A DNA stretch of 64,000 bases, taken from positions 12,809,633-12,873,632 of the forward strand of contig OZ007583.1 of assembly GCA_963931925.1 (NCBI GenBank), read 5' to 3'. The translations under genes were made by a program, and so were the position numbers. Below, in pieces: positions 5,277 to 56,689 of the stretch. Under the pieces are notes generated by a model. It was not told the DNA's origin. It did not search any database and saw nothing but the letters and a program-made list of their open reading frames with translations. Positions within the stretch are counted from its first letter, which is position 1. Each line of letters opens with the position of its first letter. This DNA is from Onchidella celtica. Taxonomy: Eukaryota > Mollusca > Gastropoda > Systellommatophora > Onchidiidae.

Positions 5277-5294
5277 ATCCCGGACGAGCCCCCA
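5277..5294 (-). promoter_or_regulatory. Primer-binding site of A1, tRNA-Pro type
   Basis: Read on the minus strand, this is an 18-base sequence beginning TGGGGGCTCGTCC. It is complementary to the 3' end (with CCA) of metazoan tRNA-Pro and sits three bases inside the LTR. It is the same primer type as murine leukaemia virus. Confidence 0.85.
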
Positions 5295-5297
5295 ATA

Positions 5298-5915
5298 TGT
5301 AACAGTTGATGCAAATTTTCAGCACGTTATAATGGGGAGAGTCAGATGAACTGATCGTCTACCCCTTAAAAACGAAACTGTCTCGAACTGTTATAGAAAT
5401 AAATAACAGGATCCGATGAACAATTTAATACTAACGTTTAATAACTGTAAACAAGAGCTGATATCCACAAGTTACTTACACCTAGCTAGCCGGGAAGATA
5501 CACTTCTAACTATGACTGGATTTGAACACCTACGATTTGCACCTTACGATTTTCACCCACGATTTGCACCACTCCTACTCGCCTGGCCCTCCTTATATAT
5601 ATTCTGTCCAGGAACGTTCAGGAAGCGGCTTAACCGCCCCATAAGCACGAGACAGACCTAGATCGTTCGGGACACATACAAGCCACCCAATCGTACACAG
5701 ACACGTCACAGAATTACATCACTCAAGGTCGACCTAGCGTAATCTCGGACACTGCAGTTCCTTCCAGACCTTCTAGATTTTCTACAGTGAAACAAACAAG
5801 CCACATCAAAGAGAAATACCGGCCTTGCTGGCGAGAGGGGGGAGGAAGGTCGCCGAGTGAGACTCGCCAAGCGGGGGTGAGAAAATATCGATCGTTCAAC
5901 TAGTGGGACGCTACA
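5298..5915 (-). repeat. 5' LTR of A1
   Basis: 618 bases; on the minus strand it starts TGTAGCGTCCC and ends CTGTTACA. It matches the LTR at 33758-34358 along its length, including a TATA-like TATATATAAGG (about 5590-5602). The outward flank is tctat. No partner LTR survives on the other side of A1, so no TSD can be checked. Confidence 0.9.
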
Positions 5916-9608: not shown

Positions 9609-9899
9609 TAAACGGAAAGACGATGAGGGATCCTTGGAATTGTTGTTTGGGGACAATTTGTCCCGAAAGGTAGACGATCTTAATAAGACAAGCAAAATTA
9701 CTAACCAACTGAGCATGGCTCCAAAAAACTGGAAGGAGAACCGAAGGGACCGTCAGTCGTCCGGTTCAGCAAAACCAAAAACAAACTGGCGGGGACAACA
9801 GCATCAGTTTCCATGGACAAAGGAAGGAGGAGGAGGAGAGTACAAAAACGCAAACAAACAGTGGAGAAATCAGAAGGGGAAAGGACAATGGAAATAAAT

Positions 9900-11668: not shown

Positions 11669-11779
11669 GACTGCTTGTGGAAGAACCACTGGAACTTTCT
11701 CGGGGAAAGGATACACTGAAACACCCAATATACTTGGACAGAGTCCATCCTCTGGGAAAAAGACTAAAGTTGATAGCTT

Positions 11780-32440: not shown

Positions 32441-33757
32441 CAGGAATATGTCACTAAATTGAACGTATATCAAATACAGGCTCTCATAGCCAGTAAAACC
32501 ACCCATACTATTCTTGTTGTAATGGAAGACTGCACTTAACTGAAAGCTCTTGAAACTCCGTCTAACAACTACAATAGCTCTGGGGAAATTCTGACAGCTC
32601 TGTTAGACTTTTTTTAAAATTTAATTACCAATAACGTTTCCCCAATTTTCTCCTGGTAAACTCCTTGAACATGTTACGATACGAAAAATTCCTTCTGCAC
32701 AAAAGTTGTTTCATTTCGAACTGTTTCCACGAAAAGCTGCAAAGGAAAACAAGAGGAATTGTGAAGCCTGGACAGTTGGTATTTTAATTTGCCAAAGCAC
32801 TGAGTCTTCCTAGTTGCTTGAAAAAAAAAACGTTGCCCTCCTCATTTATCTCATCTTTATCACCACCCCCCTCCCCCCCCCCCCTCCAAAGCGCCTTTTC
32901 CCAGCCCGTATCAAAGGTTAAGTCTTTTCTAGTCTAAATGGCCCTGAGAAATACAAAAGGAACATTCGAGACTGAAATACTCAGTTTCGTTTTCTATCAC
33001 AAATTTTGAAGGCCAGGATGACACTGACTTGTCCAATAGACATATCAGTAAATACTGTAGACGTATGTATGTTGGTATTCCTTTACCAGACATTTTATTA
33101 CGTCTGGCGTAAATACCAGACACCCAATAATGCTATTGGCAATTTTTTTTTAAAAGGCTAAGAAACTTGTCAAAATTTAACTGTAATTGTTATTAGACAA
33201 TGTGTAGAAAAAAGTGAATGCAAAGGAGAATCAAAATTATTGATATCGTTCGGTGCAATGCGGATAGACGTGTGATTTTGTTTCATTGTTTCCGTGTTAT
33301 TTAGACCATACTGTATTCTATGGTGACAGAATAAACTGTCTTTCTGCAAAGGTCATGATGATGATGACTGATGATTGTCGTAGTAATTATTGTAATCCTG
33401 GTATAAATGTAACAACGGTGATGACATTAAATGTGGGTGGCGATAATAGGGATAGTTTTAGTTTAAAATGTTCAAAATGGTGAAAAAAATGTAATAGTTA
33501 CACGGCCTGTAGATATAGAGGAAATGCTGCTATTAGTGCTGATGGTTATCGTGGTAGAGCCTGGTGATGGTAATAATAATGGTGATAAAGCGAATATTCG
33601 TTAAAATGGTTCTGATGTTGACGTTTGATTTATAGTGGCGCCGGTGTGTGATACAAGTTAATGCTTCCAAATTGTAATCGCGTCAATGATGCCAGCTTAT
33701 TTACTGCTTAATTAGACACCTCGACAAAAGTTAATCTGAAAGATGGTCAAGAGGGGG
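32441..33757. other. Non-coding stretch
   Basis: AT-rich with a C-rich run at 32868-32885. No gene recognised up to the A2 LTR. Confidence 0.5.
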
Positions 33758-34358
33758 TGTAGCGTCACACTAGTTGAACGATCGATATTTTATCACCCCC
33801 CCCCCCCCCCCGCTTGGCGAGTCTCGCTCGGCGACCTTCCTCCCCCCTCTCGCCAGCAAGGCCGGTATTTCTCTTTGATGTGGCTTGTTTGTTTCACTGT
33901 AGAAAATCTAGAAGGTCTGGAAGGAACTGCAGTGTCCGAGATTACGCTAGGTCGACCTTTAGTGATGTAATTCTGTGACGTGTCTGTGTCCCGAACGATC
34001 TAGGTCTGTCTCGTGCTTATGGGGCGGTTAAGCCGCTTCCTGAACGTTCCTGGACAGAATATATATAAGGAGGGCCAGGCGAGTAGGAGTGGTGCAAATC
34101 GTGGGTGAAAATCGTAAGGTGCAAATCATAGGTGTGAAAATCCAGTGGTAGTTAGATGTCTTCCCGGCTAGCTAGGTGTAAGTAACTTGTGGATATCAGC
34201 TCTTGTTTACAGTTATTAAACGTTAGTATTAATTGTTCATCGGATCCTGTTATTTATTTCTACAACAGTTCGAGACAGTTTCGTTTTTTAAAGGGTAGAC
34301 GATCAGTTCATCTGACTCTCCCCATTATAACGTGCTGAAATTTGCATCAACTGTTACA
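33758..34358 (+). repeat. 5' LTR of A2
   Basis: 601 bases, TGTAGCGTCAC to CTGTTACA. TATA-like tatatataagg at 34060-34070. A poly-C of about 16 sits at 33797-33812 where A1 has few Cs. Confidence 0.93.
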
Positions 34359-34361
34359 TAT

Positions 34362-34379
34362 TGGGGGCTCATCCGGGAT
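34362..34379 (+). promoter_or_regulatory. tRNA-Pro primer-binding site of A2
   Basis: tgggggctcatccgggat, three bases inside the LTR. One mismatch (A for G) to the tRNA-Pro 3' end. Confidence 0.85.
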
Positions 34380-34469: not shown

Positions 34470-35459
34470 ATGTCGGAGACTATTGGAAGGCTTGGCCAGG
34501 AAGCAGACGCCTTGGAGCTCACTGGGAAGGAGAGACAGGACTACTTCCGTGAAGGCCTAAGGGAGGAAAGAGAGAGGCAAGAGCGCATGGAGCAACTGAA
34601 GATAGCGGCTCAAGAGAAGGAGGCTCAACGACAGCTGGAAAGAGAAAAGATGAACCACGAGCTGGAGATGGAGAGGATCCGCCATCAGTGTGGAGGCGAG
34701 TCGACGCAGGGGACCAGCGACCACGCCAGTTCCAAGAGACCCAAGCTACCTGCATTTCAGGATGGGAAGGACGACCTTGATAGCTGGCAACTTCGTTTTG
34801 AGAGGTTTGCCGAGACAGCGGACTGGCCTAGATCCACCTGGACGACATCACTGTCTGCCCTGCTGACTGGAAGAGCTCTGGAGTGCTTCTGTCGATTGCC
34901 GATCGATGAGGCCAAGGACTACGACAAAGTCAAGGAAGCTTTGCAGAAGAGGTATAACCTGTCAGAGGACGGTTACAGACTCATGTTCAGACAAGGTAAG
35001 CCTGAAGATGGAGAAGATGTCGGGATGTTTCTTACTAGGATCAAGACTTACCTAGAGAGGTGGATAAAGCTATCAAAGACGGAGTTCGTTAGAGAGCAGT
35101 TTATGGATGTTTGCCCATCAGACCTTGCGACCCATGTGAGGGAGAGGAAGCCAAAGACGCTACAGGACGTCGCAGACTCGGCGGAGGCGTTCCTGGTAGC
35201 GAGGAACCGGACACTCAGCGGGAGTGCCAGACTGCAGAGCCGGCCAGTGCGACAGAAGCCCACAGGTCTGCCATAGATGCCAGAGCCCGGGACATAAGGC
35301 GACGGAGTGTCGTACCAAGATAAACGACAAAGGTGAGTTGAAATGTTACCTTTGTGGAAAGCCAGGCCACGTTCGGAGAATGTGTCCAGCCCAGAAGGAT
35401 ACGGGGCGAGGCAAGCCGAACAAGGCGGCGGCGGCCGTAGTTATAGCGGCGGACGAGTC
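34470..35459 (+). pseudogene. A2 gag, frameshifted
   Basis: Starts at MSETIGRLGQEADALELTG, then a charged coiled coil (EERERQERMEQLK), the capsid/SCAN-like region (LPAFQDGKDDLDSW, SALLTGRALECF, DYDKVKEALQKRY) and a basic C-terminal part with two zinc knuckles (second one CYLCGKPGHVRRMC). Compared with A1 it lacks nine residues (KIYEGVRDL, 27 bp, in frame, near 35083). It also has a 17-bp deletion near 35258 between short gacaga repeats, which shifts the frame so the first ORF ends at 35276 and the knuckles are read from another frame. B1 interrupts the gene at 35459. The protein would form the particle and bind RNA. Confidence 0.9.
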
Positions 35460-36653
35460 TGTCACAAATCCCAGACTGGGAGATGTAATAGTTTATGACA
35501 GGACGACAATCACGAACAAACGAGTTTAACACTTAACAAAACAGCCCATCAGACTCACACATTTATTAAACATAATTATACATATAATAGCGCAATTACG
35601 TACATTATATTATTGAAATGACTGCCGTACAACGGCCTTATTCTCACACACACTCTCCCTCGGATCCACAATCCGGTAGTTACTCCTAAAGGCACTTCGG
35701 CCTCAGCCTCTCCCCTCAGGGTCTTAATAGCACATTAATAATTTACTGGCACCGCAGTCTCTCAATATCACCTTTCTATTGTCATACACCTTAGCACTCC
35801 CCTAGCACCTCAGCAGGGCAATAACACATTATTATTTCCATAGCCATCAACATGGCAACAACATAGTATCAGTTCACTAGCCTATCAACATGGCAACAAT
35901 ATAGTATCTCAGTCACTCTCATATCTACGTCCCTGTCCGTGGCCTGACTGCCACGACTTTATGTGCCTCCACTGTCCTACACTGACAGCCTCACTTCTGG
36001 CCTATGTGTGGCCTCCGGCCCTATGCTGGCCTATCCCCTGTGCTCATCGAGGTGGCTCTGCGGCCCGTCCCCGACACCTACAAGAATAACATTATATTGG
36101 TATAATACCCTACCATTTCTATTCACTCCACCTCTCCTTACAATCCATGAAGCGTACACACACTAGTTCACCTTTCACTCACCACACATCTTACGGTAAC
36201 ACACCTCCATCGGAGTACACACTACTCACTCGCGCTACAAATCCATGAACTCACTTTCATCTATCGCTCGTGGCGCACATTGCTATATCCAATATCAAGG
36301 ACTTCCACCTTCCTCACATATACTTATTCACATCATGGTAATAGACGAATATAATATAATACATCAATCATAATAATCAATCAACATTCTACGTACCAGT
36401 CATTACTGGAAAGACTCTATCACTAGTCTTCTCGACTGCTCCCTTTATGTCCGCCCGATGGGCTCTTATTCACAGGTCCGCTCCGTAGGACCTTCTAACT
36501 TGCAGTGATAGTAATACATCGCTTTCGCCTCATTCAGACCCCCCCCCCCACTACTCACAACAGCACGCTTAACTTGCTGTCTACTGTGAGCCCTTCTTAC
36601 TCTACACCCGCTCTGTAGCAATACCCTTAATTGCACTCACTCCACTCGTGACA
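35460..36653 (-). repeat. 3' LTR of B1
   Basis: 1,194 bases. Differs from the 5' copy (41437-42635) at only a few places, such as gtttatg versus gttatg and C-run lengths. Confidence 0.95.
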
Positions 36654-36670
36654 TCATCCCCCACCCCAAA
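36654..36670 (-). promoter_or_regulatory. Polypurine tract of B1
   Basis: On the minus strand ggggtgggggatga lies directly against the LTR start TGTCACGAG. This is the expected plus-strand primer site. B2 has the same sequence at 45364-45380. Confidence 0.8.
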
Positions 36671-37009
36671 AAAATTAATGCAATTAATTTCAAATCGCAT
36701 CAAGATGACTGTCAACGAGTCGGCGTGAGCAATACCTACACTAGAAAAATGTCCTAGCAGTTCCCCTAGTATATAAAATACCGAAATCAGGGGAAAATAT
36801 GGGGATCCGTATGGCCTGCAATATGCATATATGTGTCACATCATGAATAGCTAACTAATCACAATACTTAATACAGAATCAAAAAACCACTCAACCTATC
36901 AACCATTCTTCATATCATATTTATAATGTCAATATTTTAAAGTCGACTCATTCACACAGATCCTGTCAATGTTCCTGTCCTCTGATGTATAAGCTCCTGA
37001 AATCTTCCC

Positions 37010-37893
37010 CTAGGCTCGACTAAGGTAGTCGGCGATATGATTGCTGGTTCCTGGAATTGGTTGAATAACGAAGGTATACGGCTGTAAAGCCAATGTCCAT
37101 CTAGACAAGCGTGGACTGGACGAACGATTCTTCGACAAAAATGTCAGTGGCTTGTGGTCTGTCTGGATACAAAATTCTCGTCCCATGAGATAACGTCCTA
37201 GTTTCTGGACGGACCAGACAATAGCAAGACACTCCCGCTCTATCACAGAATACTTTCTTTCTCTCTGCAATAACTTCCTACTGACATAACATACAGGATG
37301 GAGACATTCGTTCTTCTCCTGTAGAAGACAAGCGCCGACACCAGAGTCCGACGCATCCGTTCTGAGGATAAAATTAGATCGAAAATCGGGTAATATCAGA
37401 ATGGGTGACGATGATAATGCTGTCACCAAATTATCAAATGCTGTCTGACATTCAGACGTCCACTGGACCTTATCGGGTTGTCCCTTCTTAGTAAGGTCAG
37501 TAAGAGAAGATGACAAGGAGGAAAAATTTGGAATGAACTTTCTGTAATAATTTAAAATTCCCACTAAGCTTCTGACTTGTTTCTTTGTTTTAGGGATTTG
37601 TAACCCTACTAATTGTCAATTTTTGTTACTTCAGGTCTCTGAACACCTCTACCCACAATATGTCCTAAGGCTACTATCTCTGGACATGCCAAATCCATCT
37701 TTGCGGGTTTTGCAGTTAACCCAAAATGACGTAATCGTTGAAAAATTACTGTTAGTGTCTGAATATGATTAGACCATGTCGACGTATGGCATGCTATATC
37801 GTCAAAGAATGACACGACATTAGGTATGTCCTTTAATACCAGTATGAGAATACAGATACTCTGGTCTCTCATGAAACCTCTGCAGCATATCAA
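37010..37893 (-). pseudogene. B1 RT C-terminal part and RNase H, 5'-deleted
   Basis: The segment starts abruptly at the YVDD-equivalent VVSFFDDIACHT; fingers and palm A are missing. It continues with LRHFGLTAKPAKMDL and LNYYRKFIPNFSS (connection) and an RNase H with LRTDASDSGVGACLLQ, VIERECLAIVWSV and IQTDHKPLTFLS. The end, TSNHIADYLSRA, is at 37010. B1 has lost one base near 37610 (B2 reads continuously), splitting it in two frames. Upstream it overlaps the integrase C-terminal frame at the same deletion joint found in B2. It cannot act as a full polymerase. Confidence 0.9.
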
Positions 37894-38434
37894 CGTGGAA
37901 AACCTTTACTGATCCATCAATGTGGATAGCGTAATCTACCTTCGAAACAATTCGCTCAATAACATAAGGACCTTTCCATGTCATCAATAACTTATTATGG
38001 TCCGTAGGTAACAACAATAGGACCTTGTCTCCTGACTTAAAAATTCTCAGTTTGGAACCTCTATCTTTATAGTCTTTTGCTCTTTTCGAAGCGATACTAG
38101 ACGCTTCTTCTGCTATAGTGCGCGCTGAACATAATCTTTCTCTTAAATCAACAAGGTCTATCGAAACCTTTTTAAACGGTTCCGAAACCGTGGGGATCTT
38201 TTGAAGAGGAGCCTGGGGTGTACGACCCTTATGCGTCGTCTTTTGGCACGCACTGCACGTCTTACAATATAACCGTACATCTCTGTATACTGACGGCCAA
38301 TAAAAATTTTTCAGAACTCTTTGCTTGGTTCTAGCACTTCCCATATGATCCGCTAATGGAACATCATGGGCCAGACGCAATACTGTAGCAATTAACGACC
38401 GTGGCACGACGACCTGCTTTTGAACGGAAGCCAC
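37820..38434 (-). pseudogene. B1 integrase lacking its catalytic core
   Basis: It contains the H2C2 finger (HDVPLADHMGSARTKQR to CKTCSACQ), a few residues of the core start (FKKVSIDLVD), then directly the post-core segment (LRERLCSARTIAEEAS) and the GPY/F-type C-terminal domain (KLLMTWKGPYVIERIV). The D,D-35-E core of roughly 150 residues is absent in frame. B2 has the same joint. A stop TAG at 38441-38443 separates this from gag-protease, where B2 has TAC (Tyr). Confidence 0.92.
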
Positions 38435-38440
38435 TGCGAC

Positions 38441-40477
38441 CTACATACGGAACAGAATGCCCCCCTGGACAAAAAAAGAAGATGACCCGTTCTTATATCT
38501 CCTCGTTTTCTCGGTTCGCGCTTCCCCAAAACATGGGTTTAATGATGGGTCCTCCCTTTGTAATCTCGCCAAGCGCTCTGGCGTGATATCTAGGTTGACC
38601 GCTGGCGTCGCCAAAGGTCTAATCTTATCTTTATCAGCTACCCGTCGACGTGTTTCGACCGCGGCGCAAAAGTCAATACCTTTTGATTGCGACCATGCTT
38701 GCACGTTCTCATCGGAAGGGGAAACTACCCGTGATACATTCCCAATGATGAGCTGGGCGCCTGGAAAACAACCAACGACTGCTTCGACTTCCCCGCTAAG
38801 GAAAGGTGTATCTATCATTATTCTTGCCATTGGTAATTTCTCAATGGCCCCCGAAAATTGGATGCACGGGACAGTCTCACCTGTAAGCTGTGAATCTCGA
38901 ATGCAGTCCCTATGCACTCCCACAACGGTAGATCCTGTATCTCGTAAAACCGAGACCGGTTCGTCCCCAACAAACCCCGGATAAACCCTAAGACCACCTC
39001 CTGTATGACATGAATTTATAACGGGGATCTTTCTCCCACAAGGTAAAACACCGGAAGATAATAACTTCTCACAACTGGGACACTTAGAATACTGTCCGCC
39101 TCCGTTGTCCGATGTAACACACGCAGTCGCATGATGAAATTTATTAGGGGAACATGGACTGGAGCTACTGTCCACGTTCGCCGCTATCCTACCTGCAGGG
39201 CAATTCACGCTGATGTGATCTGCTCTACTGCAGTTCCAACACTTCGCGGCTCTACACTCGCGTGAAAAGTGACCCACGCGTCCGCAAGTCCAACACTCCG
39301 CTCCCTGTGCTGCACTAGGCCTGGGTCCCCGTGACCCATCGCGACCGGAACTAGAGTCCCTATGCCGTCGGTCATCGGCAAAGGTCACAAATCGCCCCCG
39401 GCCATTACCGCGACCTAGCCCTCCTGCTCGGTCAAACTTACCGGATCCATATGCCGGTGATTGGTGATAGCCCCTACGCTGCCCCTGGGCTTGCCCGCTA
39501 TAGGCACCACGCTGACGCGACCTGTCCTTAAGTCCTGCCGGCGACCCTTCGACAACGGCGACGTACCCAGCATCTTGGACGTACGCCCTGGCGACTGGTT
39601 TGGACGGATGCGCCGTACGGTATGCCTCCGCCAACTTAGACGCCTCCTGCACCGTCGCGGGTTCGTTCTCTTTCAGGAAAGCCACCAGATCTTTGTGGCA
39701 CGACGCGTACAGCTGGTCACGGATCATTAAGTCTTTCAGTTTAGCAAAATCCGTGCCCACATGCGCCAAGTCTACCCAGTTCGCGAAATACTCCGTTAGT
39801 CTGGCGACGAAGGCAGCAAAGTCCTCCCTGGTATCTGCACGTGCTCGCCTAAACTGCTCCCGGAAATATTCCTCGGTACGCGCAAATCGGCGAAGCAGCA
39901 AAGCCTTCAGCTTATCGTAATCTTGCACGTCTTCGCGCTGTAGCTCTTTAAAGTAGGTTAACGCTCGCCCCTGCAATAGCGATGCCAGGTACGTGGCCCA
40001 TAATTCCTTATTTTCCCCCCATTGCAATTGTGCGTTCAGTTCGAACCTGTAAAGGAAGGCGTCTATGTCGTCCTTCCGGTCGTCGAACGTAGGGAGCTTA
40101 ATCCTAACGCCACCTTTATTGTGTACCTGCCGCTCAACTGTTTCTGTTGGCGCATTCTTTTTGATTTCCAACTCGGCGATCTTTACTTGCGCCTCTATCT
40201 CCTTTAACTTTAACTCCCTCTCCTGCTCCCGTTCCTTAGCCTCTCTTTCCTGTTGCTTAAACTCCCTTTCCTGTTCCTTATCCTTAGCCTCTCTTTCCTG
40301 TTGCTTAACCTTAGCCTCTCTTTCCTCCTCCTGAGCCTTAGCCTCTTTTTCTCGCTCTCTATCCTTAGCACGCTCATCGCGCAAATCCGCCTGCTGTTCT
40401 TTAATCCAGCCGCGTAGCTCCTCTCCCTCCAGGCCAAGTTCCTTAGCCAACTTCATTAATTGTTGGAGTTCCGCCAT
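38441..40477 (-). CDS. B1 Gag-protease, intact 678-aa ORF
   Basis: Starts MAELQQLMKLAKELGLEG, followed by a long Glu/Lys/Arg/Gln heptad-like coiled coil (about residues 20-115), a capsid/SCAN-like domain (KLPTFDDRKDDIDAFLYRF, LASLLQGRALTYF), a basic Gly/Arg-rich linker and two zinc knuckles (CWTCGRVGHFSREC and CWNCSRADHISVNC). The protease follows with VLRDTGSTVVGV and IDTPFLSGEVEAVVGC. Unusually for this window the frame is undamaged over 2 kb; only the TAG at its end separates it from integrase. It would build particles and could be supplied to, or use partners from, related elements. Confidence 0.93.
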   Translation of the reverse strand: MAELQQLMKLAKELGLEGEELRGWIKEQQADLRDERAKDREREKEAKAQEEEREAKVKQQEREAKDKEQEREFKQQEREAKEREQERELKLKEIEAQVKIAELEIKKNAPTETVERQVHNKGGVRIKLPTFDDRKDDIDAFLYRFELNAQLQWGENKELWATYLASLLQGRALTYFKELQREDVQDYDKLKALLLRRFARTEEYFREQFRRARADTREDFAAFVARLTEYFANWVDLAHVGTDFAKLKDLMIRDQLYASCHKDLVAFLKENEPATVQEASKLAEAYRTAHPSKPVARAYVQDAGYVAVVEGSPAGLKDRSRQRGAYSGQAQGQRRGYHQSPAYGSGKFDRAGGLGRGNGRGRFVTFADDRRHRDSSSGRDGSRGPRPSAAQGAECWTCGRVGHFSRECRAAKCWNCSRADHISVNCPAGRIAANVDSSSSPCSPNKFHHATACVTSDNGGGQYSKCPSCEKLLSSGVLPCGRKIPVINSCHTGGGLRVYPGFVGDEPVSVLRDTGSTVVGVHRDCIRDSQLTGETVPCIQFSGAIEKLPMARIMIDTPFLSGEVEAVVGCFPGAQLIIGNVSRVVSPSDENVQAWSQSKGIDFCAAVETRRRVADKDKIRPLATPAVNLDITPERLARLQREDPSLNPCFGEARTEKTRRYKNGSSSFFVQGGILFRM

Positions 40478-41436
40478 TTCACAGATTTATGGTTATGGTA
40501 TGTATTACAAAACGACCAACCTGTCGGTATGATCACTAACGATACGACCAGAGACCTGAGATCACACCAGATATAACAATACCCAGTTGTCTCAAATACA
40601 ATTCAGAAATTTACCTTTACAGCACACCTAATTCTATATCTATAAAATGTATAGCACTATCAATTATAAAAGGAAATAGACGACAAGAATGAAGAAATAC
40701 AGTAGAAGGACCACAAGTACGTCAAGGACAACGAACCAGACTAGGACAAAGCTTCTACAAAAGAAAATCTAATGGAAAAAAATGCAACCTAACTACGCCG
40801 ATTATACTACACGGTACAAACAAGAACAGAGTCTGAAAAAAAAGAACGTATCTACAGAAAGGTAGAAGAGGGACAAGAGAAACGTCTTCCTAAAACAACG
40901 AGGAAGATAGAACGCTACAATCTAAACAAAAATACAGGTCCCTACAGAACTGTTCACTGTGATGAACGCGGTTCCTAGATTAGCCCACCTCCCGAAGAGG
41001 ACAAACTACGCTCACCACAGCAAACCCGCGCCACCGCCCGTACAATCAATTACAACGAAAACAGAAAAACAGCGGAACAGACAGATAAAAAGACAGCCCT
41101 CAATCCATGGTACAAAATTTTCACTTAACTTTCACCCTTGATTTCAATTTCTCCCCTTCCTCGGAGCTCTGGCTGCTTGACCTCTACAGGCTGGCACGCA
41201 CACTCTGCAGAAATTTAAGTACACATTAATACATATTCATCAAAATACATGCATCAATACATATTCATAAATATACATAAATCATATCATGAAAATTCCA
41301 TTCATCCCACGAACAAAGACAACAGCATGAATTCCTAGCACAACAGAAAAACAACTAGATATAACGAATACACAATGTCAAAATGACCACAGGTAAACAG
41401 GACGAGCCCCCAATGTCACAACGGACGAGCCCCCAG
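40478..41436 (-). other. B1 5' leader with tandem tRNA-Pro primer sites
   Basis: A purine-rich non-coding leader of about 0.9 kb. Next to the LTR are two 13-base tRNA-Pro complements (41423-41435 and 41400-41412; TGGGGGCTCGTCC on the minus strand). They are separated by 10 bases that include TTGTGACA, a copy of the LTR end. B2 has the identical arrangement. Confidence 0.88.
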
Positions 41437-42635
41437 TGTCACAAATCCCAGACTGGGAGATGTAATAGTTATGACAGGACGACAATCACGAACAAACGAG
41501 TTTAACACTTAACAAAACAGCCCATCAGACTCACACATTTATTAAACATAATTATACATATAATAGCGCAATTACATACATTATATTATTGAAATGACTG
41601 CCGTACAACAGCCTTATTCTCACACACACTCTCCCTCGGATCCACAATCCGGTAGTTACTCCTAAAGGCACTTCGGCCTCAGCCTCTCCCCTCAGGGTCT
41701 TAATAGCACATTAATAATTTACTGGCACCGCAGTCTCTCAATATCACCTTTCTATTGTCATACACCTTAGCACTCCCCTAGCACCTCAGCAGGGCAATAA
41801 CACATTATTATTTCCATAGCCATCAACATGGCAACAACATAGTATCAGTTCACTAGCCTATCAACATGGCAACAATATAGTATCTCAGTCACTCTCATAT
41901 CTACGTCCCTGTCCGTGGCCTGACTGCCACGACTTTATGTGCCTCCACTGTCCTACACTGACAGCCTCACTTCTGGCCTATGTGTGGCCTCCGGCCCTAT
42001 GCTGGCCTATCCCCTGTGCTCATCGAGGTGGCTCTGCGGCCCGTCCCCGACACCTACAAGAATAACATTACATTGGTATAATACCCTACCATTTCTATTC
42101 ACTCCACCTCTCCTTACAATCCATGAAGCGTACACACACTAGTTCACCTTTCACTCACCACACATCTTACGGTAACACACCTCCATCGGAGTACACACTA
42201 CTCACTCGCGCTACAAATCCATGAACTCACTTTCATCTATCGCTCGTGGCGCACATTGCTATATCCAATATCAAGGACTTCCACCTTCCTCACATATACT
42301 TATTCACATCATGGTAATAGACGAATATAATATAATACATCAATCATAATAATCAATCAACATTCTACGTACCAGTCATTACTGGAAAGACTCTATCACT
42401 AGTCTTCTCGACTGCTCCCTTTATGTCCGCCCGATGGGCTCTTATTCACAGGTCCGCTCCGTAGGACCTTCTAACTTGCAGTGATAGTAATACATCGCTT
42501 TCGCCTCATTCAGACCCCTCCCCCCCCCCCCACTACTCACAACAGCACGCTTAACTTGCTGTCTACTGTGAGCCCTTCTTACTCTACACCCGCTCTGTAG
42601 CAATCCCCTTAATTGCACTCACTCCACTCGTGACA
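41437..42635 (-). repeat. 5' LTR of B1
   Basis: 1,199 bases; element-sense start TGTCACGAGTGG at 42635 and end GGGATTTGTGACA at 41437. Confidence 0.95.
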
Positions 42636-42640
42636 GAGTC

Positions 42641-44173
42641 GTCGAGACAGGATGCGTCGACGGCTGACACCAGCATCAACGTTCAAGCGGTAATGAAGGA
42701 CGGGAAGCTCCAGTTAGCGGTGCCTGTTACGTGCGGAGGATGCAGTTACGGAAGGACCGTGGAGAAGCTGAAGTTACCAGTGATGAAAGGCTTGATTGGA
42801 AATCGAGCAGTAGACGTCCTAAGAGATACCGGCTGTGAAGGTGTAATGGTGCGGCGAGCACTGGTGGACAACGGACAGCTCACCGGTGGGAAGAAACTTA
42901 TCGCGAGGATCGATAACTCCTTGTTAGCGGCGGAGGAAGCCATTATCGACGTGAGAACGCCTTACCTGACGGGCAGAGTGACGGCACTGTGTCTCCCGGA
43001 GACCATCTGCGACCTAGTAGTCGGGAACGTGGACGGAGCGAAGGACGCGTACGACCCTGATACTGAGGTGATGGTAGGAGCGGTGACCACGAGGGCCCAG
43101 GAGAAGAGGAAGGACCAGTCTACGTCGCTGAGGGTGCCGAGGGCAGAACGGCACGCGGGAGTGGATAGGAAGGAACTCATCCGACTCCAGGAAGAAGACG
43201 AAGACCTCAAGAAGTCGGGGCAGAAGAAAATTCAGACCAACAGAGGCAACAAGTCCGTACACTTCGAGAGACACGGAGGTGTACTGTACCGGATTTGTAG
43301 GGACATAAGACAGGCTACGATTACAAGACAAGTGGTATTACCCGAGGAACTGAGGGAGTATGTACTGAGCGTTGCCCATGATTCTATCGTCGGAGGACAT
43401 CTCGGCGTGGAGAAGACGAAGGACCGGGTGATGAGCAGTTTTTCCTGGCCTGGTATCGAAGGTGACGTCGCGAGATACTGCCGCTCATGTGACATCTGCC
43501 AGAGAACAGTGAACAAAGGAGCGACTCCTAAGGTGCATTTGCAGAGTATGCCAGTGGTAGACGTCCCATTTAGGAGAGTGGCCGTGGACCTGGTAGGACC
43601 TATTGACCCCCCAAGTGAAGGCGGACATCGGTATATCCTGGTATACGTAGACTACGCTACTCGTTACCCTGAAGCGACCCCCTTGAAGAAGATTGACGCG
43701 GAGACAGTAGCAGAAGCCTTAGTAAATATCTACAGCCGCTTGGGTGTGCCCGAGGAGATCTTATCTGATCAAGGGACTCAATTCATGTCGGACGTCATGA
43801 AAGAAACGAACAGATTACTGGGAATTCGACAGCCGACCACCACAGTCTACCACCCTATGTGCAACGGGCTGGTGGAGCGATTTAATGGCACACTGAAGAA
43901 GACCTTGAGGCGACTGTGCGCGGAGCAACCTAAGCAGTGGCACCGATACATTAACCCGTTGCTCTTCGCGTATCGTGAAGTTCCCCAAGAATCGACAAAG
44001 TTCGCCCCATTCGAGTTGCTGTATGGAAGAACGGTGAGGGGACCGATGCACATCTTGCGACAGTTATGGACCAAGGACGTAGAGGAGCCGGAGACAAAGA
44101 CCAGTTACCAGTAATTCATGGAACTACGCGAGCGGCTGGAGGACACGTGGAAGTTAGCGACGGAAGAGCTCTC
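42641..44173 (+). pseudogene. A2 protease and integrase
   Basis: Continues the A2 polyprotein immediately after the B1 TSD. Protease: VDVLRDTGCEGVMVRR (DTG). Integrase finger: HDSIVGGHLGVEKTKDR to CRSCDICQ. Core: VAVDLVGP (first Asp), EILSDQGTQFMSD (second Asp), NGLVERFNGTLKKTL (Glu), with spacing normal for D,D-35-E. A TAA at 44112-44114 interrupts just after KTSYQ; the frame resumes with FMELRERLEDTWKLATEELS up to the B2 insertion. All catalytic residues are present. Integrase inserts the cDNA and generates the 5-bp TSD. Confidence 0.93.
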
Positions 44174-45363
44174 TGTCACAAATCCCAGACTGGGAGATGT
44201 AATAAGTATGACAGGACAACAATCACGAACAAACAAGTTTAACACTTAACAGAACAACCCATCAGGCTCACACATTTATTAAACATAATTATACATATAA
44301 TAGCGCAATTACATACATTATATTATTGAAATGCACTGCCGTACAACGGCCTTATTCTCACACACACTCTCCCTCGGATCCACAATCCGGTAGTTACTCC
44401 TAAAGGCACTTCGGCCTCAGCCTCTCCCCTCAGGGTCTTAATAGCACATTAATAATATACTGGCACCGCAGTCTCCCAATATCACCTTCCTATTGTCATA
44501 CACCTTAGCACTCCCCTAGCACCTCAGCAGGGCAATAACACATTATTATTTCCATAGCCATCAACATGGCAACAACATAGTATCAGTTCACTAGCCTATC
44601 AACATGGCAACAATATAGTATCTCATTCACTCTCATATCTACGTCCCTGTCCGTGGCCTGACTGCCACGACTTTATGTGCCTCTACTGTCCTGCACTGAC
44701 AGCCTCACTTCTGGCCTATGTGTGGCCTCCGGCCCTATGCTGGCCTATCCCCTGTGCTCATCGAGGTGGCTCTGCGGCCCGTCCCCGACACCTACAAGAA
44801 TAACATTACATTTGTATAATACCCTACCATTTCTATTCACTCCACCTCTCCTTACAACCCATGAAACGTACACACACTAGTTCACCTTTCACTCACCACA
44901 CATGTTACGGTAACACACCTCCATCGGAGTACACACTACTCACTCGCGCTACAAATCCATGAACTCACTTTCATCTATCGCTCGTGGCGCACATTGCTAT
45001 ATCCAATATCAAGGACTTCTACATTCCTCACATATACTTATTCACATCATGGTAATAGACGAATATAATATACTACATCAATCATAATAATCAATCAACG
45101 TTCTACATACCAGTCATTACTGGAAAGACTCTTTCACTAGTCTTCTCGACTGCTTCCCTTATGTCCGCCCGATGGGCTCTTATTCACAGGTCCGCTCCGT
45201 AGGACCTTCTAACTTGCAGTGATAGTAATACATCGCTTTCGCCTCATTCAGACCCCCCCACTACTCACAACAGCACGCTTAACTTGCTGTCTACTGTGAG
45301 CCCTTCTTACTCTACACCCGCTCTGTAGCAATCCCCTTAATTGCACTCACTCCACTCGTGACA
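44174..45363 (-). repeat. 3' LTR of B2
   Basis: 1,190 bases. Differences from 50145-51335 are few (for example catcaggctc versus catcagactc). Confidence 0.95.
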
Positions 45364-45721
45364 TCATCCCCCACCCCAAAAAAATTAATGCAATTAATTT
45401 CAAATCGCATCAAGATGACTGTCAACGAGTGAGCGTGAGCAATACGTACACTAAAAAAAAATGTCCTAGCAGTTCCCCTAGTATATAAAATAGCGAAATC
45501 AGGGGAAAATATGGGGATCCGTATGGCCTGCAATATGCATATATGTGTCACATCATGAATAGCTAACTAATCACAATACTTAATACAGAATCAAAAAACC
45601 ACTCAACCTATCAACCATTCTTCATATCATATTTATAATGTCAATATTTTCAAGTCGACTCATTCACACAGATCCTGTCAATGTTCCTGTCTTCCGATGT
45701 ATAAGCTCCTGAAATCTTCCC

Positions 45722-46606
45722 CTAGGCTCGACTAAGGTAGTCGGCGATATGATTGCTGGTTCCTGGAATTGGTTGAATAACGAAGGTATACGGCTGCAAA
45801 GCCAATGCCCATCTAGACAAGCGTGGACTGGACGAACGATTCTTCGACAAAAATGTGAGTGGTTTGTGGTCTGTCTGGATACAAAATTCTCGTCCCATGA
45901 GATAACGTCCTAATTTCTGGACGGACCAGACAATGGCAAGACACTCCCGCTCTATCACAGAATACTTTCTTTCTCTCTGCAATAACTTCCTACTGACATA
46001 ACATACAGGATGGAGACATTCGTTCTTCTCCTGTAGAAGACAAGCGCCGACACCAGAGTCCGACGCATCCGTTCTGAGGATAAAATTAGATCGAAAATCG
46101 GGTAATATCAAAATGGGTGACGATGATAATGCTGTCACCAAATTATCAAATGATGTCTGACATTCAGACGTCCACTGGACCTTATCGGGTTGTCCCTTCT
46201 TAGTAAGGTCAGCAAGAGAAGATGACAAGGAGGAAAAATTTGGAATGAACTTTCTGTAATAATTTAAAATTCCCACTAAGCTTCTGACTTGTTTCTTTGT
46301 TTTAGGGATTTGTAACCCTACTAACTTGTCAATTTTTGTTTCTTCAGGTCTCTGAACACCTCTACCCACAATATGTCCTAAGAATACTATCTCTGGACAT
46401 GCCAAATCCATCTTTGCGGGTTTAGCAGTTAACCCAAAATGACGTAATCGTTGAAAAATTACTGTTAGTGTCTGAATATGATCAGACCATGTCGACGTAT
46501 GACATGCTATATCGTCAAAGAATGACACGACATTAGGTATGTCCTTTAATACCAGTATGAGAATACAGATACTCTGGTCTCTCATGAAACCTCTGCAGCA
46601 TATCAA
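45722..46606 (-). pseudogene. B2 RT C-terminal part and RNase H
   Basis: Same content as the B1 segment but in one open frame. It begins at VVSFFDDIACHT without fingers/palm A, then the connection (RKFIPNFSSLSSSLADL) and RNase H with TDAS, ERECLAIV and TDHKPL. The RNase H catalytic set looks complete. The first 24 residues read through the deletion joint in the alternative frame of the integrase tail. No stand-alone start signal is evident. Confidence 0.9.
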
Positions 46607-47195
46607 TATGGAAAACCTTTACTGATCCATCAATGTGGATAGCGTAATCTACCTTCGAAACAATTCGCTCAATAACATAAGGACCTTTCCATGTCATCAA
46701 TAACTTATTATGGTCCGTAGGCAATAACACTAGGACCCTGTCTCCTGGCTTAAAAATTCTCAATTTGGAACCTCTATCTTTATAGTCTTTTGCTCTTTTC
46801 GAAGCGATACTAGAAGCTTCCTCTGCTATAGTGCGCGCTGAAGATAATCTTTCTCTTAAATCAACAAGGTCTATCGAAACCTTTTTAAACGGTTCCGAAA
46901 CCGTGGGGATCTTTTGAAGAGGAGTCTGGGGTGTACGACCCTTATGCGTCGTCTTTTGGCACGCACTGCACGTCTTACAATATAACCGTACATCTCTGTA
47001 TACTGACGGCCAATAAAAATCTTTCAGAATTCTCTGCTTGGTTCTAGCACTTGCCATATGACCCGCTAATGGAACATCATGGGCCAGACGCAATACTGTA
47101 GCAATCAACGACCGTGGCACGACGACCTGCTTTTGAACGGAAGCCACTGTGACGTACATACGGAACAGAATGCCCCCCTGGACAAAAAAAAAAAG
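46533..47195 (-). pseudogene. B2 integrase lacking its catalytic core
   Basis: Finger (HDVPLAGHMASARTKQR to CKTCSACQ), truncated core start (FKKVSIDLVD), the same in-frame joint to LRERLSSARTIAEEAS, then KLLMTWKGPYVIERIV. In B2 the codon that is TAG in B1 is TAC, but an eleven-A run (47184-47194) shifts the frame relative to gag-protease. Confidence 0.92.
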
Positions 47196-49158
47196 ATGAC
47201 CCGTTTTCATATCTCCTCGCCCTCTCGGCTCGCGCTTCCCCAAAACATGGGTCCAATGATGGGTCCTCCCTTTGTAATCTCGCCAAGCGCTCTGGCGTGA
47301 TATCTAGGTTGACCGCTGGCGTAGCCAAAGGTCTAATCTTATCTATATCAGCTACCCGTCGACGTGTTTCGACCGCGGCGCAAAAGTCAATACCTTTTGA
47401 TTGCGACCATGCTTGCACGTTCTCATCGGAAGGGGAAACTACCCGTGATACATTCCCAATGATGAGCTGGGCGCCTGGAAAACAACCAACGACTGCTTCG
47501 ACTTCCCCGCTAAGGAAAGGTGTATCTATCACTATTCTTGCCATGGGTAACTTCTCAATGGCCCCCGAAAATTGGATGCACGGGACAGTCTCACCTGTAA
47601 GCTGAGAATCCCGAATGCAGTCTCTATGCACTCCCACAACAGTAGATCCTGTATCTCGTAAAACCGAGACCGGTTCGTCCCCAACAAACCCCGGATAAAC
47701 CCTAAGACCACCTCCTGTATGACATGAATTTATAACGGGGATCTTTCTCCCACAAGGTAAAACACCGGAAGATAATAACTTCTCACAACTGGGACACTTA
47801 GAATACTGTCCGCCTCCGTTGTCCGATGTAACACACGCCGCCGCATGATGAAATTTATTTGGGGAACATGGACTGGAGCTACTGTCCACGCTCGCCGCTA
47901 TCCTACCTGCAGGGCAATTCACGCTGATGTGATCTGCTCTACCGCAGTTCCAACACTTCGCGGCCCTACACTCGCGTGAAAAGTGACCCACGCGTCCGCA
48001 AGTCCAACACTCCGCTCCCTGTGCTGCCCTAGGCCTGGGTCCCCGTGACCCATCGCGACCGGAACTAAAGTCCCTATGCCGTCGGTCATCGGCAAAGGTC
48101 ACAACTCGCCCCCGGCCATTAACGCGACCTAGCCCTCCTGCTCGGTCAAACTTACCGGATCCATATGCCGGTGATTGGTGATAGCCCCTACGCTGCCCCT
48201 GGGCTTGCCCACTATAGGCACCCCGCTGACGCGACCTGTCCCCAAGTCCTGCCGGCGACCCTTCGACAACGGCGACGCACCCAGCATCTTGGACGTACGC
48301 CCCGGCGACTGGTTTGGACGGATGTGCCGTACGGTATGCCTCCGCCAACTTAGACGCCTCCTGCACCGTCGCGGGTTCGTTCTCTTTCAGGAAAGCCACC
48401 AGATCTTTGTGGCACGACGCGTACAGCTGGTCACGGATCATTAGGTCTTTCAGTTTAGCGAAATCCGTGCCCACATGCGCCAAGTCTACCCAGTTCGCGA
48501 AATACTCCGTTAGTCTCGCGACGAAGGCAGCAAAGTCCTCCCTGGTATCTGCACGTGCCCGCCTAAACTGCTCCCGGAAATATTCCTCGGTACGCGCAAA
48601 TCGGCGAAGCAGCAAAGCCTTCAGCTTATCGTAATCTTGCACGTCTTCGCGCTGTAGCTCTTTAAAGTAGGTTAACGCTCGCCCCTGCAATAGCGATGCC
48701 AGGTACGTGGCCCATAATTCCTTATTTTCCCCCCATTGCAATTGTGCGTTCAGTTCGAACCTGTAAAGGAAGGCGTCTATGTCGTCCTTCCGGTCGTCGA
48801 ACGTAGGGAGCTTAATCCTAACACCACCTTTATTGTGTACCTGCCGCTCAACTGCTTCCGTTGGCGCATTCTTTTGGCTTTCCAACTCCGCGATTCTCAT
48901 TCGCGTCTCTCTCTCCTGTTGGTTATCCCTAGCTTCTATCTCCCTTAACTTTAACTCCCTCTCCTGCTCCTGAGCCTTAGCCTCTCTTTCCTGTTGCTTA
49001 GCCTCTAACTCCTTTACCTGAGCCTCTTTTTCTCGCTCTCTATCCTTAGCACGCTCATCGCGCATTTCTGCCTGTTGTTCTTTAATCCAGCCGCGTAGCT
49101 CCTCTCCCTCCAGGCCAAGTTCCTTACCCAACTTCATTAGTTGTTGGAGTTCCGCCAT
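47196..49158 (-). CDS. B2 Gag-protease
   Basis: Starts MAELQQLMKLGKELGLEG. The open frame runs 49158-47077 (693 aa), the last part out of register after the homopolymer at 47184-47194. Coiled coil (EAKQQEREAKAQEQ), capsid domain (DDIDAFLYRFELNAQ), knuckles CWTCGRVGHFSREC and CWNCGRADHISVNC (the second has Gly where B1 has Ser), protease VLRDTGSTVVGV. The coiled-coil segment differs from B1 by in-frame gains and losses of EREAK-type repeats. Otherwise highly similar, consistent with selection for Gag or recent common descent. Confidence 0.92.
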
Positions 49159-50144
49159 TTCACAGATTTATGGTTATGGTATCTATTATAAGACAACCAA
49201 CCTGTCGGTATGATCACTAACGATACGACCAGAGACCTGAGATCACACCAGATATAACAATACCCAGTTGTCTCAAATACAATTCAGAAATTTACCTTTA
49301 CAGCACAACTAATTCTATATCTATAAAATGTATGCATTATTAATTATAAAAGAAAATAGAAACGACAAGAATGAAGAAATATAGTAGAAGGACCACAAGT
49401 ACGTCAAGGACAACGAACCCGACTAGGACAAGGACGTAAAAAAGAAAATATAATGGAAAAAAAAAATGCAACCTAACTACGCCGATTACACAACAAGGTA
49501 CGAACAAGAACAGAGTCTGAAAAAAAAGAACGTATCTACAGAAAGGTAAGAGAGGGACAAGAGAGACGTCTTCCTAAAACAACGAGGAAGATGGAACGGC
49601 ACAATCTAAACAAAAATACAGGTCCCTATAGAACTGTTCACTGTGATGAACGAAGTTCCAAATTTAGCCCACCTCCCGAAGAGGACAAACTACGCTCACC
49701 ACAGCAAACCCGCGCCACCGCCCGTATAATCAATAACGACAACAAAAACAGCAAAAACAGGGAAACAGACAGATGAAAAGACAGCCCTTAATCCAGGGTA
49801 CAAAATTTCAGCTTCACTTAACTTTTGAAATTTTGAGTAAAACTTCTCCCTTTAATCGGAGCTCTGGCTGCTCGTCTCCTCAGGCTGCACGCACACACTC
49901 TGGAAAGTTTAAATACACATTAATACCTATTCCTAGCAATACATGCATCAATACATATTCATCAATATACATAAATCATATCATCATGAAATTTCCATTC
50001 ATTCAACGAACAAAGACAGCACAAATTCCTACCACAAGATAAGTACTACGTGGACAAAGACTAAAGTAACAAATGCCCACTAACTACTAACTAAATACTA
50101 CGAAATTGGACGAGCCCCCAATGTCACAACGGACGAGCCCCCAG
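49159..50144 (-). other. B2 5' leader with tandem tRNA-Pro primer sites
   Basis: Purine-rich leader. The primer-site complements lie at 50131-50143 and 50108-50120 with the same 10-base spacer as B1. Confidence 0.88.
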
Positions 50145-51335
50145 TGTCACAAATCCCAGACTGGGAGATGTAATAAGTATGACAGGACAACAATCACGAA
50201 CAAACAAGTTTAACACTTAACAGAACAACCCATCAGACTCACACATTTATTAAACATAATTATACATATAATAGCGCAATTACATACATTATATTATTGA
50301 AATGCACTGCCGTACAACGGCCTTATTCTCACACACACTCTCCCTCGGATCCACAATCCGGTAGTTACTCCTAAAGGCACTTCGGCCTCAGCCTCTCCCC
50401 TCAGGGTCTTAATAGCACATTAATAATATACTGGCACCGCAGTCTCCCAATATCACCTTCCTATTGTCATACACCTTAGCACTCCCCTAGCACCTCAGCA
50501 GGGCAATAACACATTATTATTTCCATAGCCATCAACATGGCAACAACATAGTATCAGTTCACTAGCCTATCAACATGGCAACAATATAGTATCTCATTCA
50601 CTCTCATATCTACGTCCCTGTCCGTGGCCTGACTGCCACGACTTTATGTGCCTCTACTGTCCTGCACTGACAGCCTCACTTCTGGCCTATGTGTGGCCTC
50701 CGGCCCTATGCTGGCCTATCCCCTGTGCTCATCGAGGTGGCTCTGCGGCCCGTCCCCGACACCTACAAGAATAACATTACATTGGTATAATACCCTACCA
50801 TTTCTATTCACTCCACCTCTCCTTACAACCCATGAAACGTACACACACTAGTTCACCTTTCACTCACCACACATGTTACGGTAACACACCTCCATCGGAG
50901 TACACACTACTCACTCGCGCTACAAATCCATGAACTCACTTTCATCTATCGCTCGTGGCGCACATTGCTATATCCAATATCAAGGACTTCTACATTCCTC
51001 ACATATACTTATTCACATCATGGTAATAGACGAATATAATATACTACATCAATCATGATAATCAATCAACGTTCTACATACCAGTCATTACTGGAAAGAC
51101 TCTTTCACTAGTCTTCTCGACTGCTTCCCTTATGTCCGCCCGATGGGCTCTTATTCACAGGTCCGCTCCGTAGGACCTTCTAACTTGCAGTGATAGTAAT
51201 ACATCGCTTTCGCCTCATTCAGACCCCCCCCACTACTCACAACAGCACGCTTAACTTGCTGTCTACTGTGAGCCCTTCTTACTCTACACCCGCTCTGTAG
51301 CAATCCCCTTAATTGCACTCACTCCACTCGTGACA
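50145..51335 (-). repeat. 5' LTR of B2
   Basis: 1,191 bases, element-sense start at 51335. Confidence 0.95.
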
Positions 51336-55390: not shown

Positions 55391-55395
55391 TTGAT

Positions 55396-55998
55396 TGTAG
55401 CATCTGCGGGCTACCCCTTGCCCTCCCCCGGTTTTGTTGTTGTGCTGGTGGCTGAGCATGTGTCCACTACTTTTTTCATTTTATTGTTGACTGTACTCCG
55501 TGACCTGACCTTCTTTTCTAGTGAGTAGTTTTTTTCCTCGCTCGCTTGTTGTCAAGTGTTTTGACTCGTTCAGTAAATATTAGTATGTTCCCGAATATTC
55601 GATAACGTTGTGGAAACGAATGTTTACGCCAGATTTGGCCTTGGGTGATGTAACCTGATGACGTATTGATGCGTGATTGGTTAGTTTGTGCGAGGGCAAA
55701 GGTAACGTTGATTTCGGGAACTTTCTATAGAAATGTTTATATATATAGACCTGTGTGAGTGGTTGGGGGTGAGTAAGTGAGTTTCCTTTTGTGTGGCGTA
55801 GATATTTAGTTTCGCTGGTGTCTTCCTAGTAATTTATTGTTCACTATACAGTTATTAAACTTTAGTATTATTTAATCTATCGTCGGATCTCGTGTTTATT
55901 TATTTTACAGCTGTAATAGTTTCGTTTTCTAAAGGGTTGTAGTTAGATCAACTAACTCCCCCCTACTATAACGTGCTAGAACAACCTCAGCTGTTACA
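55396..55998 (+). repeat. Left LTR of the palindrome
   Basis: TGTAGCATCTG to CAGCTGTTACA. TATA-like tttatatatatag near 55737-55750. Confidence 0.93.
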
Positions 55999-56001
55999 TA
56001 T

Positions 56002-56065
56002 TGGGGGCTCGTCCGGGATTTGAACCCGGGACCTCTCGCACCCCAAGCGAGAATCATACCCCTAG
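56002..56065 (-). other. tRNA-Pro copy (nt 12 to 3' CCA) between the LTRs
   Basis: On the minus strand this reads from ctaggggtatgattctcg through a T-arm cccgggttcaaatcccgg to acgagcccCCA. Against the highly conserved metazoan tRNA-Pro(AGG) it matches at every position from nt 12 to nt 72, plus the CCA tail, except position 34 where A is G. The first 18 bases (56002-56019) are the normal primer-binding site; the other 46 go far beyond it. The 5' end of the tRNA (nt 1-11) is absent. It is not a tRNA gene: it lacks the 5' acceptor strand and box A is cut. Confidence 0.88.
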
Positions 56066-56081
56066 GTACGGGACGAAAATA

Positions 56082-56684
56082 TGTAACAGCTGAGGTTGTT
56101 CTAGCACGTTATAGTAGGGGGGAGTTAGTTGATCTAACTACAACCCTTTAGAAAACGAAACTATTACAGCTGTAAAATAAATAAACACGAGATCCGACGA
56201 TAGATTAAATAATACTAAAGTTTAATAACTGTATAGTGAACAATAAATTACTAGGAAGACACCAGCGAAACTAAATATCTACGCCACACAAAAGGAAACT
56301 CACTTACTCACCCCCAACCACTCACACAGGTCTATATATATAAACATTTCTATAGAAAGTTCCCGAAATCAACGTTACCTTTGCCCTCGCACAAACTAAC
56401 CAATCACGCATCAATACGTCATCAGGTTACATCACCCAAGGCCAAATCTGGCGTAAACATTCGTTTCCACAACGTTATCGAATATTCGGGAACATACTAA
56501 TATTTACTGAACGAGTCAAAACACCTGACAACAAGCGAGCGAGGAAAAAAACTACTCACTAGAAAAGAAGGTCAGGTCACGGAGTACAGTCAACAATAAA
56601 ATGAAAAAAGTAGTGGACACATGCTCAGCCACCAGCACAACAACAAAACCGGGGGAGGGCAAGGGGTAGCCCGCAGATGCTACA
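56082..56684 (-). repeat. Right LTR of the palindrome
   Basis: Inverted copy of 55396-55998. Its inner flank keeps tat but not the primer-binding site; a 13-base filler (tttcgtcccgtac, minus strand) links it to the tRNA copy. Confidence 0.93.
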
Positions 56685-56689
56685 TTGAT

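Follow-up and report, generated by a model that had tools for sequence, protein, structure and literature searches.

In the window, by which we mean the whole 64,000-nucleotide stretch of Onchidella celtica DNA analysed here, two long terminal repeats (LTRs) stand in inverted orientation around a copy of the primer tRNA-Pro, and a single 5-bp target-site duplication (TSD) brackets the entire unit. This palindrome is probably an aberrant product of LTR-retrotransposon reverse transcription, joined by a jump of the reverse transcriptase (RT) and integrated by the element's own integrase. Five further LTR-hinge-inverted-LTR palindromes were found in the same genome, four in the LTR family of the window unit (family A) and one in a family with a 1.2-kb LTR (family B), and all six coding-free palindromes carry a perfect 5-bp TSD. 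On balance we lean towards regarding these palindromes with U3 at both ends as a distinct recurrent insertion class, which would arise from RT jumps onto a strong-stop terminus lacking the primer binding site (PBS) and would record tRNA modifications (unmethylated A58, inosine 34, m1G37), while each inverted repeat could supply small RNAs that silence its own family.

Table 1. Position of the window palindrome, its component parts and related LTRs within the window.
Feature	Position	Strand	Basis
Left TSD, 5-bp TTGAT	55391..55395	.	read from sequence
Left LTR (TGTA...TACA), U3 outermost, U5 at hinge	55396..55998	+	inverted-repeat and LTR comparison
TATA-like stretch in LTR, mirrored in right arm	55738..55747	+	sequence reading
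TAT, U5 tail between LTR and PBS	55999..56001	+	same in normal copies
tRNA-Pro copy, 64 bases, mature, positions 12-76 with CCA	56002..56065	-	tRNA comparison
Filler, 13 bases	56066..56078	.	k-mer scan of window
ATA, U5 tail of second LTR	56079..56081	-	sequence reading
Right LTR, inverted, U3 outermost	56082..56684	-	inverted-repeat and LTR comparison
Right TSD, TTGAT	56685..56689	.	read from sequence
LTR and PBS of a related Pro-primed family, normal LTR-TAT-PBS-internal order	33757..34379	+	
Second related LTR and PBS, normal arrangement	5277..5915	-	

The arms of the window unit, of 603 bases each, are inverted and differ at one position (55555, A vs G), and the inverted repeat as a whole measures 607 bases with 75 bases between its halves. 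At LTR position 160 the right arm has G, the state also present in L003 and L004, so that the A of the left arm is probably a later change. The hinge of 83 bases consists of TAT, a 64-base tRNA-Pro copy of which the first 18 bases are the PBS, the 13-base filler GTACGGGACGAAA and ATA. The preliminary description of this DNA had read two inverted 603-base LTRs meeting U5 to U5 across 83 bases, a 64-base primer tRNA copy in the hinge and TTGAT bounding the entire unit, and all of this was borne out, the tRNA being tRNA-Pro with CCA. A constant short TSD and TG...CA ends, the marks of insertion by an LTR-retrotransposon integrase, are both present; a 5-bp match would arise at random with a probability of about 0.0011 at the base composition of the window. 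No source of the filler was found by k-mer scan of the window, the longest match elsewhere being 9 bases, and the last A of GTACGGGACGAAA could be a copy opposite tRNA A76. The TATA-like stretch may serve as a promoter, to judge from its sequence. As RNA, the region 55900-56180 folds into a single long hairpin of -209.6 kcal/mol against a shuffled mean of -68.9, which is what any comparable inverted repeat would give; that the palindrome could feed small-RNA silencing is speculation.

Several familiar identities were considered for the unit and rejected. ARAGORN calls the 64-base copy tRNA-Pro(ggg), but a tRNA-Pro gene is rejected on the encoded CCA, the GGG anticodon and a 5' acceptor strand that is absent or altered. 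The five gene-like tRNA-Pro copies read (L047-L051; four further, weaker tRNA-search matches were left out of this comparison) carry AGG, TGG or CGG at the anticodon and no CCA. The unit is not a normal retrotransposon copy, its LTRs being inverted with no internal region and no polypurine tract (PPT); nor a solo LTR, having two LTRs and an 83-base hinge; nor a 2-LTR circle junction, the joint being U5-U5 with the U3 ends outermost; nor a TRIM, its terminal LTRs not being direct. An Rfam scan gave nothing at gathering score, and one pattern searched against viral contigs gave no match.

The genome searched was that of the window itself, a single assembly of 1.14 Gb in 43 contigs; the patterns were mostly exact, so that the counts are minimum values. 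At least 43 matches to the window LTR were listed, of which at least 41 are near-complete, both window arms included. Normal copies of this family read LTR-TAT-TGGGGGCTCGTCCGGGAT-internal sequence, with 1,644 exact 28-base matches to the normal PBS junction, and both normal copies whose flanks were read have 5-bp duplications (GACTT for L003/L004, GAGGG for L006/L007). The integrated 3' LTRs of normal copies are without the TAT/ATA tail. Family B is represented in the window by two 7.2-kb LTR elements about 95% alike (35444-42635 and 44155-51335), which interrupt an older Pro-primed element at 33757-54824; the LTR elements of the window contain RT/RNase H and integrase (H2C2, rve) domains. Elsewhere in the window, an RT domain is followed by a tyrosine-recombinase domain in a DIRS-like arrangement (9705-12743; Pfam RVT_1, Phage_integrase), and an endonuclease domain of the endonuclease-reverse-transcriptase kind (1256-2125, minus strand; Pfam PF14529) probably marks a fragment of a non-LTR element.

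The preliminary description had proposed to look in the same genome for inverted LTR pairs with tRNA sequence between them. The coding-free class suspected there does recur, with six members in two LTR families. The family-A palindromes are the window unit (also L035; TSD TTGAT, hinge of 64 tRNA bases and 13 others), L057 (GGTTG, 27 tRNA bases and 8 others), L058 (GAAGT, 40 tRNA bases and A), L046 (GTTAC, 66 tRNA bases and A) and L101 (GTCCC, 17 PBS-copy bases and A). In family B, L141 has the TSD ATCCA and a hinge of 13 PBS-copy bases and CAG, between arms identical over 1,194 bases. The left arm of L058 ends near LTR position 417, that of L046 has an internal deletion, and the right arm of L057 begins at LTR position 511; the join of L057 lies inside the LTR and not at its terminus. 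All three matches to the family-B pattern were examined; besides the full palindrome L141 they include two partial ones, L140 and L142, in which just 33 and 36 bases of inverted LTR are copied before other sequence follows, L140 entering a normal internal start and L142 a sequence outside the reference for the next 330 bases.

An assembly or chimeric-read artefact would have to be entertained for any palindrome, a known artefact type, and here the evidence comes from one assembly without reads; six places with different flanks, matching TSDs and different hinges make it very improbable. In the window the sequences outside TTGAT do not mirror one another, so that a fold-back read does not account for the palindrome. 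Inverted LTRs might also be left by chance when two LTRs insert independently or when a piece is inverted once integrated, and nested LTR insertion does occur in this genome (L072). However, a single TSD brackets the entire unit in all six palindromes, and the four family-A units with a join at the U5 end (window, L046, L058 and L101) retain ATA in the hinge, a tail that is missing from integrated 3' LTRs. On these two grounds the explanation, hardly credible in any case, was rejected. Because the hinge keeps an unprocessed U5 tail (TAT/ATA) that is absent from integrated 3' LTRs, joining must have preceded integration.

Besides the palindromes, longer elements with two U3 ends were detected. 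In L069 and L117 the 3' LTR end of a full element is joined to an extra inverted LTR. An inverted 3' LTR is joined at the PPT in L097 and L105, with several bases more in L107 and L078, and with 32 tRNA bases in L020. The far ends were read for five of these elements, and the TSD is perfect in four, L069 (ATTTG), L117 (GGGAA), L105 (TATTG) and L107 (ACATC), and matches at 4 of 5 bases in L097 (TATAC/CATAC). Among all U3-U3 insertions tested, the window included, 10 of 11 thus have a perfect TSD and one has 4 of 5, a tally that leaves out L015, L019, L020, L033, L053 and L078, as well as L031, in which inverted arms of 873 bases are present and the right flank reads N. The TSDs at the window and at ten further U3-U3 insertions support the earlier proposal that the unit was integrated as a single linear molecule by two U3 ends.

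Two full elements linked U5 to U5 as an inverted dimer, integrated and later emptied of both interiors by LTR-LTR recombination, would likewise keep the TSD and the hinge, and larger U3-U3 forms do exist (L117, L069). Two further recombinations would be needed in each of the six cases, however, and the measured arms are nearly identical (602/603, 511/511, 415/418, 602/603 and 1194/1194 in the five palindromes measured), so that the palindromes are probably young. We consider this origin quite improbable.

Readthrough from the PBS into the primer tRNA is widespread in this genome. A 29-base pattern consisting of the PBS and 11 bases deeper into tRNA-Pro gave 28 exact matches and a looser 24-base pattern 42, the reversed control giving 0 in both cases, and the tRNA search added three sites (L044, L045, L058) for a total of 45. 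By end motif, 15 belong to family A, 22 to family B and 5 to a third family, 3 being without an adjoining end of these kinds; the sites thus lie at U5 ends of at least three LTR families. Measured with single mismatches allowed, the copies are 24 (seven sites), 25, 27 (two), 32, 34, 36, 37 (seven), 38, 39 (ten), 40 (eight), 42, 64, 66 (two), 67 and 69 bases long. In 26 of the 38 sites with at least 25 bases copied, the stop lies at 37-40 bases, beside tRNA position 37, a 39-base copy ending just before that position. The counts keep two pairs of probable duplicates, L017/L018, which do not differ around the junction, and L023/L024, which share a junction and lie 245 bases apart, and the 38 leave out the seven 24-base sites L055, L056, L059, L061, L062, L063 and L065, which may be normal or inherited variants. 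Four of the seven (L059, L062, L063, L065) belong to the third Pro-primed LTR family, with U5 end ..GTGACAAT, and have TTGAAC or CTGAAC after the PBS, the same or nearly the same as the tRNA sequence beyond position 59; the 24-base stretch there looks like the normal internal start of that family. In L055 and L061, both of family A, CCGACC is replaced by TTGAAC in a 24-base tRNA copy with normal continuation, and since the two share one junction, slight over-extension seems to be tolerated and perhaps inherited. At L010 (C1:22210700) a family-A 3' LTR is followed by 67 bases of tRNA copy, after which other sequence begins; here the tRNA copy sits on the end of an element.

For the U5 tails that lack the usual preceding CCA, a census gave 32 + 44 = 76 matches, of which 29 + 40 = 69 were read; outside the 69 are L015, L019, L020, L033, L069 and the window, already covered, and C17:2036365, which coincides with an LTR from the family-A match list. 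Judged by junction sequence, 19 of 29 in the first set are LTR ends next to ATA that no element sequence precedes. The 40 of the second set include 11 normal PBS junctions that have a different spacer, and 9 copies of one repeated family (L095, L096, L109, L111, L112, L113, L115, L123 and L133), an LTR-bearing sequence with a shortened PBS and, behind it, sequence matching no reference used, possibly an amplified aberrant derivative. Rearranged loci in the census include L083, L091, L098, L110, L118 and L132.

Based on these junctions, we propose the following course of events. As the window hinge shows, plus-strand strong-stop DNA was copied through U5 into the tRNA-Pro primer, past the 18-base stop and up to position 12. 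Normal plus-strand transfer would then fail, since such a 3' tail is unable to pair with the minus-strand PBS. RT would shift the stalled 3' end to another molecule of plus-strand strong-stop DNA, one that has already lost its tRNA, and place it at the 3' terminus; this terminus would read U5-TAT, often with one further T opposite tRNA A76. After addition of a short filler, the second molecule would be copied to its 5' end, the U3 terminus, which would thereby become usable by integrase, and the partner strand completed likewise. As the 5-bp duplications show, integrase finally used both U3 ends of the linear LTR-hinge-LTR' product to insert it. The same jump to the same terminus would also account for the elements in which the 3' LTR is inverted or an additional LTR stands in inverted orientation.

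In line with this scheme, the joined partner is in most cases an LTR end that lacks the PBS, met exactly at its terminus. Seven of the 45 readthrough sites, found by a search that demanded no U5 end, lead into an inverted LTR either at once or across a short filler (L015 and L031, with an inverted LTR only after other element sequence, are left out), and the join is at the exact U5 tail in six (L019, L033, L035, L046, L053 and L058), L057 being joined inside the LTR. In HIV-1, RNase H leaves one ribo-A. An A before ATATGTAAC is expected if one base opposite tRNA A76 is copied, and A precedes ATATGTAAC in 9 of the 13 inverted joins read, with a chance of about 0.004 if A makes up 30%, an indicative figure only, as the 13 joins pool matches from differently biased patterns. 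In L033, an unusual second junction leads from the CCA of the tRNA copy into plus-strand LTR sequence from about position 214, and the filler is LTR sequence in reverse direction. Against the jump model stand the filler of the window unit, whose source was not found in the window scan, and L057, which is joined inside the LTR.

Host end-joining could alternatively have ligated the U5 ends of two double-stranded linear cDNAs or LTR fragments with filler, the product then being integrated by its U3 ends. The fillers of 0-13 bases, the joins at the exact U5 terminus and the extra LTR attached to the 3' LTR end of a full element in L117 and L069 agree with such an origin, and double-strand end-joining could also yield short fillers. 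On the other side, normal reverse transcription is not known to pass through double-stranded pieces that consist of an LTR only and are finished at U3. The donor end in L097 and L105, which have one common junction and might descend from one event, is the exact PPT/U3 boundary plus A, as would befit a strand end and not a double-strand break. Together with the partial LTR copies that pass into other sequence (L140, L142) and the reversed-LTR filler of L033, these donors favor copying over ligation, and we regard end-joining as unlikely. The preliminary description had two LTR-bearing cDNA ends, one of them extended into the tRNA, joined before integration. The timing stands, with the U5 tail TAT/ATA on both sides of the hinge; the joining itself is better explained by RT template jumping than by double-stranded ligation; and tRNA readthrough is rejected as a requirement, the hinges of L101 and L141 holding only PBS-length copies (17 and 13 bases). 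An exact search of the genome for family-A U5-U5 palindromes with 0-7 bases and no tRNA between the arms gave no match.

The tRNA copies may also carry traces of modification in the copied tRNA. The window copy was aligned to human tRNA-Pro(TGG), with the sequence taken from PMC12217144, and its sole difference is at position 34 (gene T, copy G). G stands at this position in all five copies that pass it (window, L010, L044, L045, L046), and A, T or C in the gene-like copies L047-L051. A pattern allowing any base at 34 with the copied body otherwise exact found, in this genome, three of the retrocopies and one broken tRNA-like piece, and no tRNA-Pro gene with G34. Position 27 is C in all five long copies and T in the one AGG gene read; exact search of the genome gave no AGG tRNA-Pro gene with C27, and no gene with exactly the copied body was found. 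As inosine is read as G in cDNA (PMC12362250, accessible text), the G34 in five of five copies points to mature tRNA-Pro(AGG) with I34 as the copied template. CCA is present in the tRNA copies, yet was demanded by the search patterns for 42 of the 45 sites.

According to the accessible text of PMC13191261, m1G37 occurs on tRNAs reading C-first codons other than CAN, a context common to bacteria, eukaryotes and archaea; tRNA-Pro falls under this rule. The base at position 37 is altered in two (L045, L046) of the six copies extending past it (window, L010, L044, L045, L046, L054), each with three differences overall, so that chance mutation is possible, and the eight 40-base copies end opposite position 37 with the correct C, which weakens the position-37 signal once they are counted. 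Opposite A58, T is found at 42 of 45 sites, A in L053 and C in L057 and L065, T having been required by the first pattern for 28 sites and left free by the second. Readthrough past a methylated A58 as the rule is considered less likely. Primer tRNAs including tRNA-Pro carry m1A58 (PMC13191261, same text), so that the templates here would have to be an unmethylated minority. From the DNA we infer a template without m1A58 and with m1G37 and I34.

The 18-base stop of plus-strand synthesis on the primer tRNA has been studied with HIV-1 in the accessible parts of the literature consulted, and this genome preserves, as a natural collection, what results once that stop is missed; the stop sites seen here adjoin a known modification position. 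The insertions also indicate that a molecule with two U3 ends can be integrated productively, and the jump provides a one-step, testable account of the origin of inverted LTR repeats, which are potential silencing triggers.

Known forms resemble the window unit in part. In 2-LTR circles two LTR ends are likewise joined before integration, sometimes with primer sequence, but there the joint is U5 to U3 with the LTRs direct, and here it is U5-U5, inverted and integrated by two U3 ends. Like a solo LTR, the unit is coding-free with one TSD, but it has two inverted LTRs and a tRNA/PBS hinge. TRIM/LARD-type elements share the lack of coding capacity, the LTR ends and the TSD; their two LTRs are direct and accompanied by a PBS and a PPT, whereas the window LTRs are inverted and no PPT is present. 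Inverted terminal repeats also occur in some DIRS and Penelope-like elements, groups that use different enzymes; the ends, TSD and PBS of the window unit are, in contrast, those of a tRNA-primed, integrase-type LTR element. Among the open-licence PMC titles and abstract openings listed, a scope outside which older retroviral circle-junction work lies, no integrated LTR-tRNA-LTR palindrome is described, and the accessible text of PMC12789967 has nothing on them. An 'inverted pair of LTRs' is named for a locust Gypsy family (PMC8786324), where the LTRs described flank a retrotransposon and, in one instance, lie within a lncRNA, the accessible text making no mention of a tRNA hinge or a coding-free palindrome. 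A close parallel is HIV-1, as described in the accessible text of PMC13191261: extension passes A58 when m1A58 is missing, with minor stops at position 37 that are unusable for transfer, and the over-extended plus-strand strong-stop DNA, which either stops at position 37 or copies unmodified tRNA-Lys3 in full, resembles the present copies in passing A58, in stopping beside 37 and, as proposed here, in being unfit for normal transfer. The post-PBS start of the third family resembles the lentiviral primer over-extension sequence in that text. Unlike the HIV-1 products, observed in vitro and in cells, those found here are integrated copies of tRNA-Pro in LTR retrotransposons, in which over-extension was followed by joining and integration.
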